From: a virus
Direction: 5' to 3' (one strand)
DNA length: 31,996 nucleotides
IMG/VR virus record: IMGVR_UViG_3300027749_000339
Span: 1 to 31,996 of that record
Shown here: piece by piece, positions 7,572 through 25,256 of the stretch
Position numbering within the stretch: position 1 is the first letter of the stretch
Layout: every line of letters starts with the position of its first letter
Program-made: the position numbers and the translations under genes
The notes under the pieces: model-generated
The model's database searches: none
Seen by the model: the letters and a program-made list of their open reading frames with translations, nothing else
Told to the model about the DNA's origin: nothing

Positions 7572-8888
7572 TCACCATGTCCAGGTGACGTCGCCCCATG
7601 TGCCCTCGTCCCACCGGGAGAAGGCTTGCGGGCGGTAGGCGGTAGCGCTTGAGAACGTGAGCGAGGTCGTCCAGCGGTCGGCCGTGATCGCGTGCGATAT
7701 GCCCTCGATAAAGACGTAGCGGCTGATCGTCGTCTGATTCTGCGGCGTGTATTCAACCAGCGCCCCGAGCCGCAGGGCGATAGAGCTTGTGGCGAGCGCA
7801 TTCCAGAGTCGGCCGTCGGCGTTGTTCGGGTCCAGCGGGTTGAGCCGCACGGACTCGACGCGATGCTCGGGGTCTTTCAGGATCGCTAGGTCACGCCTGG
7901 CGAGCATGAGCACGTCGGCGTCGCTCTCGCTGATGAGGTCGCTACGACTCTCGGCACGAGTGCCGTAGAGCTGCTGCGATGCGGCTGCGGCGACTTGCTG
8001 CTCGTCGCCGCCGGTGCGCTGGTAGGTGATGAGGTTCCGCACCAGGTCGCCGTTGTAGCTCAGCGAGATATCGGCGTAGGTGAGTGTCGACGAGTCGGTC
8101 GGGGCGTCGGAGAAGTGCAGCGCCGGTATGACTCGGCCGTCCTTTTCTACCTGCGAGTTAAAGCCATCGAAGCGGGCCGAGCCGTCGGGAGCGCAGTAGA
8201 AGGCGCCGCCCTCGCTGTCGGCGGTCAGGGCGATGAGGCTCTGCGGCGATCCCTCTAGCGTCGTCGCTTGCATCGTGGTTTCGCCGTCGTCAAGGATCAT
8301 CGGCCAGCGCCAGTCGGCGTCGGTCAAGATGCGCCGAATACGTGCGCCTGCGGTCTCGCCTGCGCCCTGCGGTGAGCGCGCCAGATTGGTGATCGCTGCG
8401 AGCTGCGAGTCGTTGCCGACCAGCTCAACGCTGACGGTGGAGTCCTTGCCGTATTGGGCGAAGTTTTCCGACCATGACTGGATCAGCCCGGTGAACAGTT
8501 TCCAGCCGGTCGTGATTCCGGCGGCGTTCGTGTACCGGGCGCGAATGCGCATCGGGCGCAGGATGCCGATCTTCTGGTAGTTGTCGCCGTCGGTGTTTGT
8601 CGGCGAGTAGTTGCCGCTGCGATTGTCCAGCACGACCGAAGCGCTCGCAGTGTTGTAGCGGTTTGTCTGGCGGCTGAATGCTGCCGAGGTGGAGACGCTG
8701 CGCACGTCGGCGGTGATGTCGGTCCAGGTTGTCGTGATCGGCGGCTGCCAGTAGCTCGTCGCCCAGGTGGCGCTGCCCCACTGTGTTGAGGTTCCGGCGA
8801 CCGGTGCGCCCGAGGTTTCGGAGATCGTCTGAGTGAAGTCGGCCTCGACGTAGAGCGTCACGCTCCCGCCCCAGCCTGTCGTGCCCAT
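7572..8888 (-). CDS. Minor tail protein (tail tip/Tal-like)
   Basis: 438 residues immediately after the tape measure gene (TGATG overlap), the usual place for distal tail and tail-associated proteins. The protein is beta-rich with many Trp/Tyr/Thr residues, includes NRYNTASASVVLDNRSGNYS near residues 80-100, and a central part with alternating helices (ARIRRILTDADWRWP). This pattern is shared by single-gene minor tail proteins of actinophages in which distal-tail and hub functions seem combined. It should form the hub at the tail tip. No peptidase or lysozyme motif was noticed. Confidence 0.82.
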   Translation of the reverse strand: MGTTGWGGSVTLYVEADFTQTISETSGAPVAGTSTQWGSATWATSYWQPPITTTWTDITADVRSVSTSAAFSRQTNRYNTASASVVLDNRSGNYSPTNTDGDNYQKIGILRPMRIRARYTNAAGITTGWKLFTGLIQSWSENFAQYGKDSTVSVELVGNDSQLAAITNLARSPQGAGETAGARIRRILTDADWRWPMILDDGETTMQATTLEGSPQSLIALTADSEGGAFYCAPDGSARFDGFNSQVEKDGRVIPALHFSDAPTDSSTLTYADISLSYNGDLVRNLITYQRTGGDEQQVAAAASQQLYGTRAESRSDLISESDADVLMLARRDLAILKDPEHRVESVRLNPLDPNNADGRLWNALATSSIALRLGALVEYTPQNQTTISRYVFIEGISHAITADRWTTSLTFSSATAYRPQAFSRWDEGTWGDVTWTW

Positions 8889-11083
8889 CAGGCCACCGCG
8901 AGCGGTAGCGGGCCGTTCCTGCGGATGTAGCGCTGCAGCTCGTCAACGAGCTGGTCGCCGTTGGTGACGTTCGGCAGGGCGATGCTCAGGTGCTCAATGT
9001 TCACGCCACCGCCTGCGCCGCCTTGCATGGCGTGGCTGGTGCTGAGCGAGGTCATCACAGTGCCGCTGCTTGACGGCACGAAAAGCTCCGGCCCCATCTC
9101 GCCGACAAGCGTCGGGCGACCTGCGGGCAGGTAGCCGCCGGAGGCTGCATTAGGTATCCAGTTTCCGTTTTCGTCACGATGGTGCGTGCGCAGGAACGGC
9201 GACGAACCTTCGCCGCCTTGGCCGGTGGCGATCATCAGCCCCTGCAGAACGCGGAAACGTTCGATAGTTGCTTTCAGCTCTTCGTCATCTGTGCGCACGC
9301 CGAACGGGTGCGCCTGCAGCCACTTCGTGACATCGTCAGCGGTGGTCTGGATGCCGGTGATGCGTTCGATCATCACGCGCCCGGCCTCGGTTGACGGGTT
9401 GATCCCCAAGATGCGCAGCGAGTCAAGCGCGCCCTCGAATGCTTTAGCGTCGGTGCCAGCGTTCTGATGAGCTACGCCGACTTTCCCGAGAGCGTCAACC
9501 AGCCCCAGCCCTGCGTCGATCTGCGCCTCTAAAGCGCTCTGCACCTCGGGCGAGTCGGCGGCGTGGCCCTGCTCTGCCTCGCGCAGCGCCTTGGTCGCCT
9601 CGTCAAGATCGCGTCGGCCCTTGGTTACTGCGAAGTAAGGGTCAACGCTCGCGCGCAGCGCATCGCTCGCGTTTTTGATTGATTTTTCAAAACCTTCTTG
9701 CGCTGTTTTTGCTTCTTCAGCGCTGACGGTGTTTTCGTCAATCTTGCCGGTGTAGGCGCCAAGTGCCGCAGCGACGGTCGGGAAAACGGTCCCACCTTCG
9801 CGCTGCTTGTTGAGCCACGCAAGCGCTTGATCTGCACTTATGCCGGTGGCATCGGCAAGGGCAAGGGCTTGGTCGATCATCAGTTGCATGGCCTCAGCTG
9901 TGGCCTCTGCCGACTGGCGAGCGCCGTCGGCGTCGTCTCGCTCCCAGAACCATGAGAAGTGAGACCAGCCGTCGCCTTTTTCCTTGAGTGCTGAAGCTTC
10001 GGAGCTAAGTTGCGAGATTGAAGTGCTTAGCGCTCCGATGCCTTGCGCTGCTGCGGTTCCGAATCTGGCGTCGTTGAGTTTATCGGCGGCGGTTTTTGCA
10101 CTGCTCACGCCCTGCTCGTAGATGCTCCAGATGGCTACGCCAGCGGAAACCGCCAGCGACGCAATGCCGAGCAGCTTTGTGGTCATCTGCGCGGTCGCGC
10201 CCATTTCGATATAGGCGGTCTTCGCTTTCTGCACCTGTCCAGCCATGAGCAGAAAAGCGCCGCCAGTGACAAGCACAACGCCGCCCACCACGACGATCGG
10301 GCCGATGATGTCGCGCACGGGTCCGGGGATACCTGTAAGCAGCTCGGTGAACTTGGTCAGAATCGGCAGCATTTGGTTGCCGATTTGCACTTTTGCGCCG
10401 TTGACGGCGGCGGAGAGTTCGCGCTGCGCCACGATGTTTTTCTTTACGGCGTCGACGTTGTCCTGGCTGAGGACTAGGCCCATCTTGTCGGCCTCGTCGC
10501 TTAGCTCCTTGATTCCGTCTCTCCCCTTGAACAGGAACGGCAGCAGGTTGGCACCGGAACGCCCGAACAGGTCAAGCGCTGCGGCCGTGGACTCGGTGCC
10601 CGGTCCCATTTTCCGGAACCGGTCGGCGACGTCGCCAAGCACATCGGACATTTTGCGCAGGTTGCCGTCGCTCGTCTTCGCCTCCACGCCAAACTTGCCG
10701 AGCTTCTCGGGCGTGTTCGCCATCGTCTTAGAAAGCTTGCCGATGCCGACGGCGAGATCGTCGACGCCGACGCCGGACATCTTGGCGGCGTAGGCGAGCT
10801 TGGATGCACTCTCTGCGTTCATGCCGGTATAGCGCTGCAGCTTCATGACCTCGCGCCCGAGATCCGTAGTCGTTGAGGCTGCCGAGATCGCCGTCGCCAG
10901 CAGCCCGGTGCCGACGGCCACCATGCCCGCGCCGATTTTCGTAGCGTTCTGCGAAAACTTGGAGACGTCGCCGCCTGCCTTGCCGAGGTTCTTTTCGGTT
11001 TCGCCTGCGAGTTTCTTCATCTCCGAGATGGCGCCCGAGGCGTCGCCGGTGATGAGGATCATCAGTTTTTCACTGAGCGCCAT
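8888..11083 (-). CDS. Tail tape measure protein
   Basis: 731 residues. The N-terminus (ILITGDASGAISEMKKL, then coiled-coil and a hydrophobic segment GAGMVAVGTGLLATAIS) and the block ALDLFGRSGANLLPFL are typical of siphovirus tape measures (PhageMin_Tail type). Two further hydrophobic stretches lie near residues 262-285 and 305-325, and the C-terminus has the conserved GGYLPAGRPTLVGEMGPELFVPSSSG motif. The protein sets tail length and is ejected with the DNA. At this size a tail of roughly 110 nm would be expected from about 0.15 nm per residue. It lies directly after the frameshifted chaperone pair. Confidence 0.96.
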   Translation of the reverse strand: MALSEKLMILITGDASGAISEMKKLAGETEKNLGKAGGDVSKFSQNATKIGAGMVAVGTGLLATAISAASTTTDLGREVMKLQRYTGMNAESASKLAYAAKMSGVGVDDLAVGIGKLSKTMANTPEKLGKFGVEAKTSDGNLRKMSDVLGDVADRFRKMGPGTESTAAALDLFGRSGANLLPFLFKGRDGIKELSDEADKMGLVLSQDNVDAVKKNIVAQRELSAAVNGAKVQIGNQMLPILTKFTELLTGIPGPVRDIIGPIVVVGGVVLVTGGAFLLMAGQVQKAKTAYIEMGATAQMTTKLLGIASLAVSAGVAIWSIYEQGVSSAKTAADKLNDARFGTAAAQGIGALSTSISQLSSEASALKEKGDGWSHFSWFWERDDADGARQSAEATAEAMQLMIDQALALADATGISADQALAWLNKQREGGTVFPTVAAALGAYTGKIDENTVSAEEAKTAQEGFEKSIKNASDALRASVDPYFAVTKGRRDLDEATKALREAEQGHAADSPEVQSALEAQIDAGLGLVDALGKVGVAHQNAGTDAKAFEGALDSLRILGINPSTEAGRVMIERITGIQTTADDVTKWLQAHPFGVRTDDEELKATIERFRVLQGLMIATGQGGEGSSPFLRTHHRDENGNWIPNAASGGYLPAGRPTLVGEMGPELFVPSSSGTVMTSLSTSHAMQGGAGGGVNIEHLSIALPNVTNGDQLVDELQRYIRRNGPLPLAVA

Positions 11084-12252: not shown

Positions 12253-12660
12253 TCAGGAGGTGGCGCGAGTCAGTGCGCCCGAGCGCGGCCAAGTGACCGA
12301 GACCATGCTGAGATCGCCGACCTTGCCGCCGAGCTTGTATTGGTTCACGAGGTAGCTCGCCGAGTAGACCGGATTAGTGGCCGAGGTTGCGGCGCTGGTC
12401 GCCTTGACGGTGACGGTCACAAGCGTGCCGCGAGCTGCCCAGATGGTGGCGTCGACGGATGAGGCGGCAAAATCGTTCTGCGCCTCGATTGTGATGCTGC
12501 CATCCTTCAGGCCGCCGACGCGCGTGTGGTTTCCCGAGGTGCCGAAGTTGGTCGTGTCAATGTCAGCGACCGAGTCGTCGAGGCTCACGCTGGTGACATG
12601 ATCGGAGAGGTCTACGCCGTTCACGACGATGACGGGGTTGGTGATTACGAAAGCAGCCAC
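12253..12660 (-). CDS. Major tail (tube) protein, copy 2
   Basis: 135 residues from a GTG with GGAGG upstream. The sequence shows the tail-tube pattern of actinophages: NGVDLSDHVTSVSLDD, then ADIDTTNFGTSGNHTRVGGLKDGSI and a following FAASSVDATIW strand. This family forms the hexameric tube rings of siphovirus tails. It is clearly paralogous to the gene just upstream (12695-13429). Being compact and closest to the canonical pattern, it is the better candidate for the actual tube subunit. Confidence 0.85.
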   Translation of the reverse strand: MAAFVITNPVIVVNGVDLSDHVTSVSLDDSVADIDTTNFGTSGNHTRVGGLKDGSITIEAQNDFAASSVDATIWAARGTLVTVTVKATSAATSATNPVYSASYLVNQYKLGGKVGDLSMVSVTWPRSGALTRATS

Positions 12661-12694
12661 GGGCTGACCTCCTGTGTAGGTGTTTGGGGGTGGG

Positions 12695-13429
12695 TTACTG
12701 AATGGCGACGAATGCGGCGTATGTGACCGAGCCGGTCGTGCCTCCCAAGGCACAAGCGACGCGCCAGTAAGCGTCAGTGGTTACGGTGGCGGACGAACCA
12801 AACGAACCGCCGGTCGTGCTGCGTGAGAGGCTTACTGACGTGGTGTAAGCACCAGCAGTGCCGGGTGTTGTCGGGTTTCGCTGGCAATTGAACGTCGGCG
12901 ACCTGTCGCCGGTTATTGAAAAGACGTGCACGCCGAAATAGACGCTTTGACCGGCGGCCACTGGCCCAAGATTGAAAAGCGCGCTAGTCGGAGTTCCCGC
13001 TGAGACTGTTTGCTTAGGGGCCAAAAGCGTTCCGGCCAGCAGGCCCTCGGCCTGCGCTTCGGGCATTGTGGCGTCAAGCTTGGAAACGTCGCCGACCTTG
13101 AGGGGCTGCTTTGTTGAGGTGAGCAGGCCGCGCAACGCATAGACGCGATCGCCAGCAGTGGCGGTGCCGCCGGTCGGGAACTGCACGGCGGTGAGCAGCT
13201 CAACGGTGCCGGTCTTTGTGCTGAGCGCAGGCTCAACGATCGCCGGGTCGCCGAACGTCATCACGCTGGCGGTGGCGTCCTCAATGCCTGCGATGCGTTC
13301 GTGGTTTCCAGAGCTGCCGAACGTGGTCACGTCAAGATCGGCAAACGATGAATCAACGCTGAACTCGTTAGCGGTGGCGGTGAGGTCTACGCCGCCGTAG
13401 TAGATGACGCAATCGCGAAGGATGGGCAC
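12695..13429 (-). CDS. Tail-tube paralogue with extra C-terminal domain, copy 1
   Basis: 244 residues. Residues 10-60 (YGGVDLTATANEFSVD, ADLDVTTFGSSGNHERIAGIED) align with the start of the next gene product, so the pair arose by tandem duplication. The second half, from about residue 145, adds a Ser/Thr/Gly-rich beta domain (VYFGVHVFSITGD..., SVTYAAFVAIQ) that could project from the tail. AGGAG precedes the ATG. It may be a second tube component, a decoration, or the main tube protein with the other copy minor. Confidence 0.8.
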   Translation of the reverse strand: MPILRDCVIYYGGVDLTATANEFSVDSSFADLDVTTFGSSGNHERIAGIEDATASVMTFGDPAIVEPALSTKTGTVELLTAVQFPTGGTATAGDRVYALRGLLTSTKQPLKVGDVSKLDATMPEAQAEGLLAGTLLAPKQTVSAGTPTSALFNLGPVAAGQSVYFGVHVFSITGDRSPTFNCQRNPTTPGTAGAYTTSVSLSRSTTGGSFGSSATVTTDAYWRVACALGGTTGSVTYAAFVAIQ

Positions 13430-13438
13430 GCAGAACTC

Positions 13439-13852
13439 CTATGGTCGGGCGTAGACGGTGACGGTGAACTCGCCGCCCCAATAGCCGATGCCGCTGACCT
13501 CTTCAGAGGAGAGCGGGCGAAACGATGTGCAGATGAGATCGTCGGCGATGCCGCCGAGAGTGCGATCGGATTCGACCGCTGCGCGCACTGATGTGGGCGA
13601 GCCGGGGTCGGCGTAGGTGTCCAGGTCGATGCCGCTCTGCTCTGAGTCGGCCGACTGCACGAGCACCATGATGCGGAACTCGTAGCGCACAAGTCCGGCG
13701 CTGCTGAAGCTCTGGTGGTAGTCGATGGACGGCGTCACGATGACGGCGCAGGGCACGTTCGCTAGGCCGCCCTCGCGCTCGTACACCTCAACTCCGGGCA
13801 GCGCCTGCAGGTTCGCAGCGAGGCCCTGGCGAATGTCAGCGAGCGAGGTCAT
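13439..13852 (-). CDS. Tail terminator protein
   Basis: 137 residues: an N-terminal helix (LADIRQGLAANLQAL) leads to a strand-turn pattern with PCAVIVTPSIDYHQSF, then YEFRIMVLVQSAD, a helix with SVRAAVESDRTLGGI, and a final GGEFTVTVYARP. This order is typical of the ring protein that caps the tail tube and joins it to the head in siphoviruses. The ATGA overlap couples it to the connector gene. It lies right before the tail-tube genes, as expected. Confidence 0.78.
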   Translation of the reverse strand: MTSLADIRQGLAANLQALPGVEVYEREGGLANVPCAVIVTPSIDYHQSFSSAGLVRYEFRIMVLVQSADSEQSGIDLDTYADPGSPTSVRAAVESDRTLGGIADDLICTSFRPLSSEEVSGIGYWGGEFTVTVYARP

Positions 13853-14457
13853 GCGAGTGACGTCTCATAAAGAGTGAACGGCGCCAGCAGGCGCTCGACC
13901 TGCGGCAGGCTCTTGATTCGCACCGCGCCGTACTGATCGAAACCGGCAACGCCGAAGGGCGCCTCTCGGAGTTTGTAGGTCTCGGCGGCGAGGATGAGTG
14001 CGGCCTGCGTGACCGGCTCGGGAATGGCGGGCCAGCCCCAGCGGGCAGTCACTCGCACGCATGGCCGCGCCGAGGTGATGTCGTTCGGAATGGTGAGGCT
14101 GCCGAGGGTGCGCAGACGAGTCACCGGCCACGCCATGCCGTTAGCGCCAATGCCGTTCAGCGGCTCGGCAAGCCACTCGGTGGCGCCGAGGTCGTAGGCC
14201 CAGGTTCCATCTTGCCCGGTGTCCAGCTCGACGAGCGAGATCGTGCCAACGACTGCGTCGTCAATGGCGACGGTGTGCTCGGTGGAGCGACGGTAGACGC
14301 GCGTGCTTGTCGCAGCGTCGGCATAGAACCGGCGGCGACAGTGGCCGTCAATCTCACGACTGGCCGAGGTGATCGCTGCGGCGACCTGCGGGTCGTTCGC
14401 CGTCACGGTGAGGCCCATGTACGCCTTGAGCGTGGCGGCGGCGACGTAGTCGGTCAC
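13849..14457 (-). CDS. Head-tail connector (HK97 gp6-like adaptor)
   Basis: 202 residues with GTG start overlapping the previous stop (GTGA). Residues 20-45 (DPQVAAAITSASREIDGHCRRRFY) match the hallmark of the gp6/Phage_connect family, in which an alpha-helical adaptor docks on the portal. A long insertion of strands follows and the C-terminal helices (VTQAALILAAETYKLREAPFG) match again. It should bridge portal and tail terminator. A separate head-closure protein is not evident nearby. Confidence 0.82.
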   Translation of the reverse strand: MTDYVAAATLKAYMGLTVTANDPQVAAAITSASREIDGHCRRRFYADAATSTRVYRRSTEHTVAIDDAVVGTISLVELDTGQDGTWAYDLGATEWLAEPLNGIGANGMAWPVTRLRTLGSLTIPNDITSARPCVRVTARWGWPAIPEPVTQAALILAAETYKLREAPFGVAGFDQYGAVRIKSLPQVERLLAPFTLYETSLA

Positions 14458-14642
14458 GACTCGGCGGCGTCAGTCTTGGCAGAGCGGCGCGCCGGACGTG
14501 GCGCTGCGGCGGTCTCGATGCCGTAGGCGTTGAGGATTGCGGTCGCGCGTGCGGTGTCGCCGTTGCGCCAGGCGTACCACGCCTCACGCTCGGCGCCATT
14601 GAGCGCGTCGCACTGTGCTGCTGAGAGCTTGTCAAAGTCCAT
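14454..14642 (-). CDS. Small head-region protein
   Basis: 62 residues; start with a strong AAAGGAG. Contains LSAAQCDALNGAEREAWYAWRNGDTARATAIL, a helix-turn-helix-shaped but not DNA-binding looking segment, and an Ala/Arg/Lys-rich tail. Small proteins of this kind often sit between capsid and connector genes in actinophages; role unknown (possibly head stabilisation). It follows the structured RNA element behind the capsid gene and is coupled to the connector gene by GTGA. Confidence 0.72.
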   Translation of the reverse strand: MDFDKLSAAQCDALNGAEREAWYAWRNGDTARATAILNAYGIETAAAPRPARRSAKTDAAES

Positions 14643-14668: not shown

Positions 14669-14760
14669 AGAGAGCGACGGCGCGCTGCCGTCTATGGCGA
14701 CGCCCCGACGAGGGGGAAGGGCATCTAGCCGGTGGGAGACGGGCTGCGCCGTCGCTCTCT
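14669..14760 (-). ncRNA. Nested inverted-repeat RNA element behind capsid gene
   Basis: AGAGAGCGACGGCGC (14669-14683) and its perfect complement (14746-14760) form a 15-bp closing stem around 62 nt. Inside, CCGTCT (14687-14692) pairs with AGACGG (14737-14742), and CCCC (14703-14706) with GGGG (14712-14715) across a 5-nt loop. It lies 34 bp beyond the capsid stop codon, before the next gene's ribosome binding site. No T-run follows. It could stabilise capsid mRNA, slow readthrough or act as another RNA signal. Confidence 0.75.
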
Positions 14761-14794: not shown

Positions 14795-16162
14795 TCAGAA
14801 GCTCGGTGTGGCAAGTCCGGTTCCGGACACCACACTCACGCCAGCGGGGTATTTCCCAGCGGTAAACGCTGAGTAGCCAAAGGCCACGAGCTTGATCGTG
14901 AGCTGACCGCCGAGGGTCTGCTCAAATCGAAGCTGCATCGGTGAGCCGGTCTGCTCCCAGAGGCACAGGTCGGGCGAGTAGCAGACGATGATCCGATCCT
15001 CATTGGTTGAGGCGCCGAGGTTGGTCGGCACGTTGGCATCAACCAGCACAGGGATGCCGAGCAGCGAGCCGACGATGCCCGCGCCGACGTTGCCGCCGAC
15101 GCCGTAGGCGTTCATTGGGCCGTTGACGTTCGGCGTCACCAACGGGCGGCTCTGGCCGTCGACTGCAGCCAGGAAGAACGCCCAGCGGCGCGGGTGCATG
15201 ACGATGAGGTCGGCAGGCATGTAGCGGTTGGAGTTCACTCGCTGCACGGCGTCGGCGATCTTCGGGAACAGTTCCGCTGCCGTCGGCGATGCGTCGGTGT
15301 AGGTGACCGAGTTGATGCCGGAGACGGAGAGCACGCCGGTGTGGGTGCCGGATGTTCCGGCGCCGCTGATGATCTGCGAGTCAAGCTGCGTCGCGTATGC
15401 CTGGAGCAGGTCCTGCACGACGACGGTATCGATGCCGGTACCGCGCTCGATGGCCTGACGGCTGACGTCCTGCTGGCCGGAGATGGTGCGCACCGGAACG
15501 GTGAGCAGTGTGTCGTCCATGTCGGTGCTGCTGACTGACGAGTTCTCAGTGGCCTGCGAGGCAGCGGTGCTGCCGGTGGTCACTCGGGAGATGTTGACCG
15601 AGAGGCCTTCAGCGGGGAGCGGGAGCTGGCGAACGGCGTCAGCGAACGGACGGCCCGCACGAGCGAGCGGTGCCACCTGGTCGGTGAGGTACTGCGGAAC
15701 CACGAGGCCGGAGAATGCGCCGGTATCGCTGGCGCGATGCTCGGTAGCCATCTCGACCATGTGGCGCTCGATGCGCTGGCGGGCGGCGTAGTCGCCGCGA
15801 ACCTCGGCAGAGTAGGCGTCACGCAAGAACGAATGCGCGGTGTCTGCCCGGTAGGTCAGCTCTTCGCGACCGACGCGCACGATGGCGGAGTTCGGGGCGA
15901 GTTCCTTGGCGCGTGCTTCGTGATTGGCGCGGGCGGCGTCAATGGCGACGAGTTCAGCGACGCGAGCCTCAAGGGTCTCGATGCTGGAGTCGGCGGCCTT
16001 GACGGCGTCGCGAGCTTCGGCGAATGCGATTGACTCGTCGGAGTTGAGATCGCGAGCCTCGGCCTCGGGGGCGGCGAGGATGGTGTCAAGCTCGGCGGCC
16101 TTAGCGGCCCGAGCTTCGTATGCTGCGGCGAGTTGCGCGCGCAGCGTGTCGATGACCGACAT
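14795..16162 (-). CDS. Major capsid protein, HK97 fold, with delta domain
   Basis: 455 residues. The first 105 or so residues are a charged coiled-coil scaffold (delta) domain; the HK97 capsid core begins near 150 (GAFSGLVVPQYLTDQVAPLARAGRPFADAVRQLPLP) and includes DSQIISGAGTSGTHTGVLSV, YMPADLIVMHPRRWAFFLAAVD and a C-terminal QLTIKLVAFGYSAFT strand. The scaffold should be cut off by the upstream prohead protease. The ATG has AAGGAG at good spacing. It is preceded by the protease and followed by a structured RNA element. Confidence 0.96.
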   Translation of the reverse strand: MSVIDTLRAQLAAAYEARAAKAAELDTILAAPEAEARDLNSDESIAFAEARDAVKAADSSIETLEARVAELVAIDAARANHEARAKELAPNSAIVRVGREELTYRADTAHSFLRDAYSAEVRGDYAARQRIERHMVEMATEHRASDTGAFSGLVVPQYLTDQVAPLARAGRPFADAVRQLPLPAEGLSVNISRVTTGSTAASQATENSSVSSTDMDDTLLTVPVRTISGQQDVSRQAIERGTGIDTVVVQDLLQAYATQLDSQIISGAGTSGTHTGVLSVSGINSVTYTDASPTAAELFPKIADAVQRVNSNRYMPADLIVMHPRRWAFFLAAVDGQSRPLVTPNVNGPMNAYGVGGNVGAGIVGSLLGIPVLVDANVPTNLGASTNEDRIIVCYSPDLCLWEQTGSPMQLRFEQTLGGQLTIKLVAFGYSAFTAGKYPAGVSVVSGTGLATPSF

Positions 16163-21915: not shown

Positions 21916-24552
21916 CTAAAAGGGTCGGAATGGCTCGGGGTCGGTGCCGGTGGGGGCGAGGTCGTCGGGTGGTGCCTGTGGATAAAGTTGCGCGCCATGC
22001 GTGTCATGCGCGCAGGGTGGCGTTTCCGAGTGTTCAGAGGAAGTAAGTAAGTAATCCTCTGAAATGCCTTTAGGCGCATGGCGCGCATGGCGCGCACCTT
22101 TTGACGTTTTCGCGTCGTTTTTCGCCGAGTTCGTGCGCGCATGGCGCGCATGGCGCGCAACTTCGGGGTGCACCTCCAGAACGGGCGAGGACACACCTCG
22201 ACGCCCAAGCACCGGCGGCCAGTCGTTATCCACAGGCCTGAGCCATCCGCGCTCGACGAGTAGGGAGAGCGGCGGCACGGTGTCGTCGGCCTTCGGGTAG
22301 GTCCGACGCATCGCCGAGTAGACATCTCGCACGGTGAACGTCTCGCGTCCGGCGGCCCATTCCATGATCGCTCGGGCCTTGAGTAGCACCGGGTCGGCGC
22401 CCCACATGTCGTGCACGGCGAAGGCGTGAGCGAGCCAGTAGTCGCCGATCTCAATCGCCCGAGCCATCGGGTCGGCGGTCACGGTGTCATGAAGTCGCCC
22501 GCCATCGGCGAGGTGCAGCAGGCCCGCCACTCGCAGCGTCGTGCTCTCCAGCTTCGTGGACCATTCGGCGATCGGGCGCATGTCTGCACCTGGTAGCCGT
22601 CGCTTCTCCATCGCTTGGCGCCAGCGGTGGAACATCGCCGACGCTTCGGCGTCCAGGGCGAGGATGTTCAGCTCGCCGCGGTGCTCGACGATGGCGGCGA
22701 CCTGCATCATCTGCGCCGAGTACGCCGCAGCGATCGCCGGGTCGGCCTCGGGCTGGTCTATGAAGTTACGGCGCCCGACGGTGTCGACCGGTAGCGCATA
22801 CATGAACCGAGCGGTCAGGCCTCGCCCGGCCAGCTCGGGTCGCTCGGCGAGTGCAGAGATGACCGAGGGCTGAACAGTGACGCCGATCGTCAGAGCGGGC
22901 GACGCCACTGCCGACGGTCCTCGCCCGATGCGGTCGACGGTGATGTCGTCGCCGCCCCACGCCTTCAGGTACACATCAAGGTTTGCCCGATCCGAGTAGC
23001 GCCCGGTCATCAGATCAAAGACGCCGCCCTCGGTGGAGAGCAGGGCGATGCGGCCGTCGTGGTCAGCCAGCAGTGAGGTGAGCGCCTCGGGCGTGGCGTC
23101 GTCGGCGATCATGCGCGGGCTGGCAAGTTTGTCCAGGGCGAGCAGCTCGGTGAGCAGTCGCTGCGCCTCGTGCTCGTCGCCGGACTCCTCGGCTTTCTTG
23201 AGCGCTTTCTCCTTCATGCGGTGCGCCTGCTCGGCCTTGGCGATCTCAACGGTGCGCCGCTCAATCTCGGCCTTCTCGTGGGCCTTGAGCGGGGCCATCA
23301 TGGCGCTGAACGCTGGCGATTTACCGGCGCTCGGTGGCATCGCTACCGCCGTGTAAATGTTGAGCGGTTCATTCCATCCGCCGCGCACCTTGACTCGGGT
23401 CCGCTTGGCGCAGATGGCGGCGAGACATGTCAGCGCCATGATGGCGGGGAGGTCCGGCGGCATCTGCAGCTCGTCGGCGACGGCGTAGACCTGCTCGGCG
23501 ATCCATTCGGGCAGGGTCTCGACGGGGAACTCGGGCAGCTCGTCAGCCATGCCGAGCGGTATCGGGTCCAGCCACTGGCCCGGCGGCTGCGCTACCGATG
23601 ATCGGGTCGCTGCGCTACCGCTGATCGGCACGCTGCACTCCCACTCGTCGACGACTCGCATCTCGGAGCGCTTGAGTTCAGCGGCACAGGCTGACCGGTC
23701 GCCGCCGTGGTGCACCGCAGCGGTGTACCCGAAGCGCGAGTAGGCGCCCTCCGGCAGGGCCGAGATCGCCGAGGTGAACACTCGCAGCACGTCTCGGCCC
23801 TGATAGCCGACGGTCGCGCTCGTGCCGTCTCTGGTTTCCTTGCCGGGTCGGGTCCAGTGTTGGCAGCCGTCGCGGTCGGTATGGCCGAGAGTCCAGCCGT
23901 CGGCGCCGAGCAGCTCGGCCCAGGTGGTGGCGTCGTTGTAGCGCTGCGCCGGGCCATCCTCGCTCGCTCGGTTACCCTGAATAACGTCCGGCGTTATGCA
24001 GGGTTGAGCCTCGGCGGTCAGCATGGCGATGAGCCAGCCGGGCGCCTCGGCGATCGGGATCTCGTCAAGCCCTGCGCCGTCCTCCCACTCATATGCTCGC
24101 CCGCTGGTCGGGTGAATCGTCGGCGGTGCGACGACTTGCCCGCCTTCGCCTCTGATGTCAAGACCGGCGCCGAGCTTGCGCCCGGCGTCGTTGCGGATCT
24201 CCACGCCTACAGGGAGCCGGTAGTAGTGGTGTGCCCCGCCCGAGCCGGTGATGGTTCGCACAGTGTCCGTCAGTGGGCCGTAGGTGTCCTCAAGTTCCCG
24301 CAGCGTCTCGTCGCCCGCCTTACCGTCGGCGACGTCAACGTCGAGCACGAACACTCCCGAGCCTGCGCCGGTGGCGATGCCGACGCCGTGGTCGGAATAG
24401 AGACCGGTCCACCAGAGGCGGATCGTCTCGGGGTCGGTGGTGGCTGCGTCCTGCCATGCCCGCATCGGTGGACGCTTGCCGCCGGGCATGATCGGGAGAA
24501 CTCGCAGACCTCGCTCGGCGTAGTCCAGGGCGGCGGTGAGGTTGTCGCTCAT
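21916..24552 (-). CDS. Prim-pol/DUF3987 replicase (primase-helicase-like)
   Basis: 878 residues. The N-terminal prim-pol domain (about 1-180) has VLDVDV with metal-binding Asp71 and Asp73, SGGAHHYY (105-112) and [14 protein letters not shown] (131-144). From about residue 350 a DUF3987 helicase-like domain begins, with Walker A PSAGKS (407-412) and LSTEGG further on. A winged-helix-like part follows ([20 protein letters not shown]...). The tail contains repeated His-Ala-Arg units and is low-complexity. Such proteins prime and unwind in phages lacking their own replicative polymerase. ATG at 24552 overlaps the previous stop (ATGA). No phage DNA polymerase is present, so host polymerase is probably recruited. 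Confidence 0.92.
22074..22159 (-). repeat. Intragenic GCGCATGGC repeats in replicase gene
   Basis: A 23-bp block made of overlapping GCGCATGGC units occurs exactly at 22074-22096 and again at 22137-22159, 63 bp apart (21 codons). A related inverted form lies at about 21990-22015 (TGCGCGCCATG, CATGCGCGCA). In protein they give His-Ala-Arg-His-Ala-Arg segments. Repeats in this part of phage replicase genes may serve as replication-initiator sites. Confidence 0.75.
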
Positions 24553-25256
24553 GCCGCCGCCTCGTCTGCCATGCGCAGGAACCAATCTCGGAAGCCTGCC
24601 CTTCGGAACTCCATCAGAGCGTTAGTGCGCTCCACACTGTCGGCGAGTCGCCGCAGGACTGCAGGCTGATCTCGCCACGACTTCACGGTGCCGCCGTTAG
24701 CGATGCGCTGCTCAATCGTGTCGGCGAGCAGCCGACCGATCGCAGGATTGTCATGCCATTTGCCGATCGCCCTGTTGCAGTCAGCGCAGTAGAGGGCACG
24801 AACGCACTGCCCGCAGGACCTGCGATTGCGATCCGTGTACGAGCAGCATCGGTGATCGTGATCTATGTCGAGCAGCTTTCCGGTTTCAAGGAGGTAGGTC
24901 GCCTCAACGATTCCGCAACCGGCGCATCGGTGGAGCTGCGACGCAAGCAAAGCGTCTCGCTGCTCAATGGCGATTCCATACCGCAGGCAGCTTCGGCGAA
25001 TCCTGCACGTTAGGCATGTGCTCTGCAGCCATGTGCTGGAAAGGTCTTTACTGCACCTAATGCATAGGCGAGCATTTCGTCGAGCGCAGAGGTAGGAGTT
25101 CTGCTGAACGGTTCTCCACTCCCTCAGGTGCTGCGCGCAATAACTAGAACGCACAGAGCTGGAGTGCACCGACTGCTGGCATCCTTCCCACGCGCAGCGC
25201 CGCAGTGTCATCTCTCCCCAGGTTTCGTCAAGCGCCTCCTGCTTGTGCTCGCTCAT
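24549..25256 (-). CDS. Recombination endonuclease VII-like (HNH)
   Basis: 235 residues. N-terminal cysteine pairs (CAWEGC, CIRC, CLTC) suggest zinc fingers; the catalytic part has CAGC (111-114), LDIDHDH (129-135), [24 protein letters not shown] (148-171), including Asn161, as in T4 endonuclease VII, a Holliday-junction and mismatch resolvase. The C-terminal 60 residues are helical. It could resolve branched DNA before packaging or act in repair. ATGA overlaps the small zinc protein gene upstream. Confidence 0.9.

Follow-up and report, generated by a model that had tools for sequence, protein, structure and literature searches.

Hairpins resembling terminators are already known behind the capsid genes of HK97, SPP1, and T7, and the element reported here, found in a window comprising a whole IMG/VR record of 31,996 bases, is a U-less and elaborated variant of them. 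In T7, the terminator T-phi follows gene 10, and segmental mRNA stability is set by the intercistronic hairpin of the Rhodobacter puf operon and by REP stabilizers. The name of Mu-gpT-DE suggests a conserved RNA motif that lies behind gpT, a head gene of Mu. This name (Rfam RF03012) is cited in PMC7657543, and a rho-independent terminator has been described after the major capsid gene 13 of SPP1 (PMC6316719). The SPP1 terminator is U-tailed and occupies positions 8775-8815, directly behind gene 13. The HK97 record lists a putative terminator after the capsid gene gp5, and hairpin-forming sequences were found after the capsid genes of phiC31, D3, and Mu; TP901-1 has only a weak post-capsid hairpin and Giles none that is comparable. 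At the curated threshold, all 4227 Rfam families, including RF03012, gave no match, whether in the window, in 20 relatives, or in 10 reference phage loci (HK97, D3, Mu, and phiC31 among them), and a literature search of mostly non-subscription papers returned no description of a conserved post-capsid element.

The window represents a temperate phage that encodes a serine integrase; its late genes are located on the minus strand in the order terminase, portal, protease, capsid, 62-aa protein, adaptor, tail terminator, and tail proteins. The major capsid gene (14795-16162, minus strand) encodes a 455-aa protein of the HK97 fold (Pfam PF05065, 1.8e-16; phrog_2263, 8e-58) and ends in tandem stops, i.e., TGA at 14797-14795 followed by an in-frame TAG at 14794-14792. 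A stop-codon readthrough stimulator was considered and rejected, since this TAG immediately closes the frame. The capsid stop (14795) is separated by 152 nt from the next start codon (ATG at 14642), and the Shine-Dalgarno site of the next gene (AAAGGAG, 14655-14649, minus strand) lies beyond the hairpin and stays free. The next gene (14454-14642, minus strand) encodes the 62-aa protein, which has a basic Ala-rich tail, resembles its counterparts in relatives, and matches no Pfam or PHROG family; it overlaps the start of the connector gene. The first well-recognized gene downstream of the hairpin is this head-tail adaptor (13849-14457, minus strand; phrog_442, 2.3e-18), the expression of which must depend on read-through past the hairpin. 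From the gene order and the absence of promoter-like sites near the element, we infer a polycistronic operon extending across the hairpin. In the window and its relatives, the gene after the hairpin usually encodes 56-89 aa with a basic tail and the common pattern L-[RK]-E-x2-GY-x3-G-x3-R-x2-V; most copies are unnamed, and one Streptomyces copy weakly matches phrog_6852 (head-tail connector). Elsewhere in the window, two adjoining minus-strand genes (12253-12753 and 12695-13429) both match major tail protein families (phrog_4574 and phrog_9522), a possible duplication of the tail tube gene, and repeated GCGCGCATGGCGCGCA blocks at 21984-22163 form inverted repeats inside an 889-aa open reading frame (21916-24585, minus strand).

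The post-capsid structure reported for the window is confirmed and lies on the minus strand, the sense strand of the capsid gene. As a rod of 92 nt (14669-14760), it fills most of the 152-nt gap as the initial annotation had stated, and it is closed by the perfect 15-bp stem claimed there (AGAGAGCGACGGCGC / GCGCCGTCGCTCTCT), with the 5′ arm at 14760-14746 and the 3′ arm (GCGCCGUCGCUCUCU) at 14683-14669. Within it, a predicted middle stem pairs CCGUCU (14742-14737) with AGACGG (14693-14688), and a predicted inner stem pairs 14730-14718 with 14706-14696 around a loop at 14717-14707. On the minus strand, these two stems are stacked in a single rod; a side-by-side arrangement belongs to the plus-strand fold. 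A small leading hairpin of 7 bp (14786-14770, minus strand; CGCUGAC-CUA-GUCAGCG, i.e., CGCTGAC-CTA-GTCAGCG in the DNA) had been overlooked; it begins 8 nt after the capsid stop, and the main hairpin begins 34 nt after it. The fold prediction proposed as a check bore the structure out: the minimum free energy of the minus strand is -75.9, vs. -53.0 ± 3.9 in shuffles (z = -5.93; as low in 0 of 200), and the plus-strand fold is unremarkable (z = -2.35). The raw folding energy of the region is among the top few of 3189 minus-strand windows of 110 nt; ranking windows of 70 nt underrate an element of this length. The T-run reported as missing is indeed absent, and no terminator-like site was found between 14300 and 15100.

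The close family numbers nine sequences if the window is counted; its capsids share 88-100% identity, and every pair of the structure is kept in it (100% of 356 cells), with the small leading hairpin invariant throughout. In one relative (L003), the middle-stem pair U14737-A14693 is replaced by G-C, a compensatory double change, and both partners of a closing-stem pair, A14752 and U14677, are deleted. Furthermore, the inner-stem wobble U14723-G14701 corresponds to C-G in relatives, and an additional C/G pair of the inner stem occurs only in the window, L001, and L010. Covariation in the close family is thin, as its one double change is matched by 55 of 500 shuffles in a test that ignores paired indels; the indels agree in direction.

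More distant relatives were obtained by capsid-profile scans, which yielded 80 viral loci and 23 genome loci, the latter mostly in Streptomyces, Nonomuraea, Frankia, Amycolatopsis, Microbacterium, and Acidimicrobiales; 58 loci remained after dereplication, 53 of them outside the close family. Their capsids, from marine contigs and from Streptomyces and other prophages, are about 38-52% identical. Behind the capsid stop, 50 of the 53 carry a strong hairpin without branches (it is missing in L009, L071, and L120), with sequences unrelated to that of the window. In the median case, the family hairpin starts 7 nt past the capsid stop and ends 16 nt before the next start codon; stems span about 12-23 bp, compared with 34 pairs in the rod of the window. 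Two hairpins are likewise present in an Acidimicrobiales locus (L111), which is the closest cellular homologue. A change of the next gene does not remove the hairpin: it is kept in front of a connector gene in Bipper, a methyltransferase gene in Superphikiman, a glycosyltransferase gene in Baka, and elsewhere the gene of the small basic-tailed protein. It therefore belongs to the capsid 3′ end and not to the control of one next gene.

Among 27 aligned marine loci, double changes occur in 16 of 17 pairs, covariation reaches 0.49 vs. 0.21 in shuffles (0 of 500 attain it), and in every covariation measure this alignment surpasses each of the 500 shuffles as well as all of the slid controls. Of the 27 AT-rich hairpins, 25 are capped by GNRA loops, almost always GCAA, and some GC-rich hairpins carry UUCG or UCCG loops. 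Of the two strands, the sense strand gives the more stable fold at 33 loci and the antisense strand at 12 (p = 5e-5). This energy bias was used in place of G-U counts, which gave no strand separation in a fair comparison (55 vs. 40, p = 0.15) and were significant only when hairpins had been picked on the sense strand. The conservation and covariation that the initial annotation asked for are thus both found in relatives, and the hairpin recurs after distant capsid genes. A structure that is conserved, covarying, and recurrent in this manner supports selection for RNA structure directly after the capsid stop, as judged from sequence comparison, across phages whose hairpin sequences are unrelated.

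The hairpin is also specific to the capsid end. At AT-rich loci, it is present at 27/27 capsid ends and at 0/83 other gene ends (Fisher p = 3e-26), and at GC-rich loci at 22/31 and 4/122, respectively (Fisher p = 1e-15); as the loci are related, these p values are descriptive only, and the 31 GC-rich loci include five close relatives scored as misses because the rod exceeds the 75-nt unbranched-hairpin measure. When capsid genes were sampled via a Pfam model, independently of similarity to the window, a hairpin was found at 19 of 45 capsid ends and 10 of 127 others (p = 9e-7), an enrichment weaker than in the capsid family of the window, yet clear. On account of this enrichment, the trait reaches beyond that family, although it is not universal.

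Together, these observations suggest that selection maintains the post-capsid hairpin as an RNA device by which the mRNA of the capsid gene stays abundant relative to that of the genes behind it. With a probability of roughly one half, we consider it an element at the 3′ end of the capsid message that blocks 3′-to-5′ decay, to which modest attenuation may add; its position and known precedents point to protection from decay. Within a polycistronic late mRNA, the element would form the structured 3′ end of the capsid cistron. RNA polymerase would mostly pass through the hairpin, the mRNA would be cleaved downstream, and the folded hairpin would then halt 3′-to-5′ exonucleases, whereby the capsid segment would outlast the connector and tail segments. 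This would help to supply hundreds of capsid proteins per virion vs. only about a dozen connector proteins, and the same hairpin may also modestly attenuate transcription. In form and position, the element resembles an intercistronic stabilizer of the puf/REP kind, being a stable U-less hairpin that separates an abundant product from a scarce one. Of the functions first proposed, stability (or attenuation) at the capsid 3′ end fits best; a translation throttle acting on the next gene is less easily reconciled with the free Shine-Dalgarno site and with a hairpin that is kept when the next gene differs, and there is no indication of a regulatory RNA, be it packaged or free.

The main rival to a decay barrier is partial termination, in which an I-shaped intrinsic terminator without a U-tract would release some polymerases and so leave fewer transcripts that extend into the connector and tail genes. 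This is a serious possibility, with a probability well short of even, and it owes its rank to reports, which are disputed, that U-less hairpins may terminate transcription in actinobacteria (PMC12288462, PMC8355165). I-shaped terminators without poly-U have been reported in M. tuberculosis and Streptomyces, while the need for a U-tract in mycobacteria is itself debated. A site just past the stop codon is typical of terminators, the element lies, as a stable hairpin, within the distance of about 50 nt from the stop codon that characterizes the I-shaped class, the putative terminator of HK97 and the U-tailed one of SPP1 occupy the same place, and the hairpins of HK97, D3, and Mu have T-rich 3′ arms or tails. 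By contrast, U-rich tails occur in 0 of 50 family hairpins, including those of genomes with about 36% GC, in which T-runs are cheap; the hairpins are therefore not canonical terminators, and the canonical (L-shaped) form was rejected for the window, which also lacks the U-tract. Moreover, as the roughly 16 nt from the hairpin to the start codon behind it cannot accommodate both a promoter and a leader, efficient termination would cut off the essential connector and tail genes.

The same spacing bears on translation. With median distances of 7 nt from the capsid stop and 16 nt to the next start codon, the hairpin is placed between a terminating and an initiating ribosome. It could serve as an insulator that prevents ribosomes, on completing the very highly translated capsid gene, from sliding onward and initiating again at the gene behind it, and the free Shine-Dalgarno site and the tandem TGA TAG stops of the window are in keeping with such a role. 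We consider it unlikely, as many other gene pairs in the same operons overlap or abut and are hairpin-free, and the next protein varies among phages with no specific need to limit it being evident. It also seems improbable that the hairpin, instead of acting passively, is a dedicated regulatory RNA element recognized by a phage or host protein that tunes the capsid-to-connector ratio; the GCAA loop, which hardly varies among the marine members, could for example provide the handle. Cleavage of the late mRNA by RNase III between the capsid and connector genes is in line with stems that are long and double-stranded with few imperfections (about 12-23 bp among relatives, 34 pairs in the window); however, many of these stems fall below the roughly 20 bp or more of classic RNase III substrates, and a conserved internal loop or cleavage-site pattern was not seen, which leaves a processing site decidedly doubtful. 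Finally, perfect inverted repeats can also be read at the DNA level, but a recombination site, mobile element, or packaging site is scarcely credible here, as no second copy of the repeat was found in the window genome, pattern matches in the collection beyond the family are mostly coding or otherwise unrelated, and stable tetraloops, G-U pairs, and the sense-strand bias favor RNA. Two such matches may be recorded. At 9211-9302 of L016, a tRNA-like sequence (ARAGORN tRNA-??? at 9220-9295) lies within a longer perfect stem that lengthens its acceptor stem by GAGAGCG/CGCTCTC, an incidental find of the stem-pattern scan, and the unrelated contig L012 has a GGAGAGAGCGG...CCGCTCTCTCC stem at 1203-1276, apparently intergenic and probably due to chance.

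How hundreds of capsid subunits and about a dozen connector subunits arise from one late operon is seldom explained for tailed phages, and a U-less hairpin tied to the capsid 3′ end, whether the phages infect marine bacteria or actinobacteria, points to a shared solution at the RNA level; post-capsid hairpins should accordingly not be annotated as terminators by default. Among the known systems, HK97 resembles the window in that its hairpin lies a few nucleotides past the capsid stop and just before the start of the next gene. The HK97 hairpin has a GNRA loop and is short (11 bp), with U's in its 3′ arm, whereas the window has a 92-nt rod and a leading hairpin and no U-run. SPP1 and T7 T-phi likewise place a hairpin directly behind the major capsid gene and upstream of less abundant products, but theirs have U-runs and act, or are predicted to act, as terminators, unlike the element of the window. 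The puf and REP stabilizers share with it a U-less hairpin that, within one operon, separates a product made in abundance from a scarce one, although the genes differ and the stabilizing role in the window is a proposed one. The new findings are how broadly and how specifically the U-less hairpin occurs in the capsid family of the window, its covariation, and the elaborated two-part form that it takes in the window.
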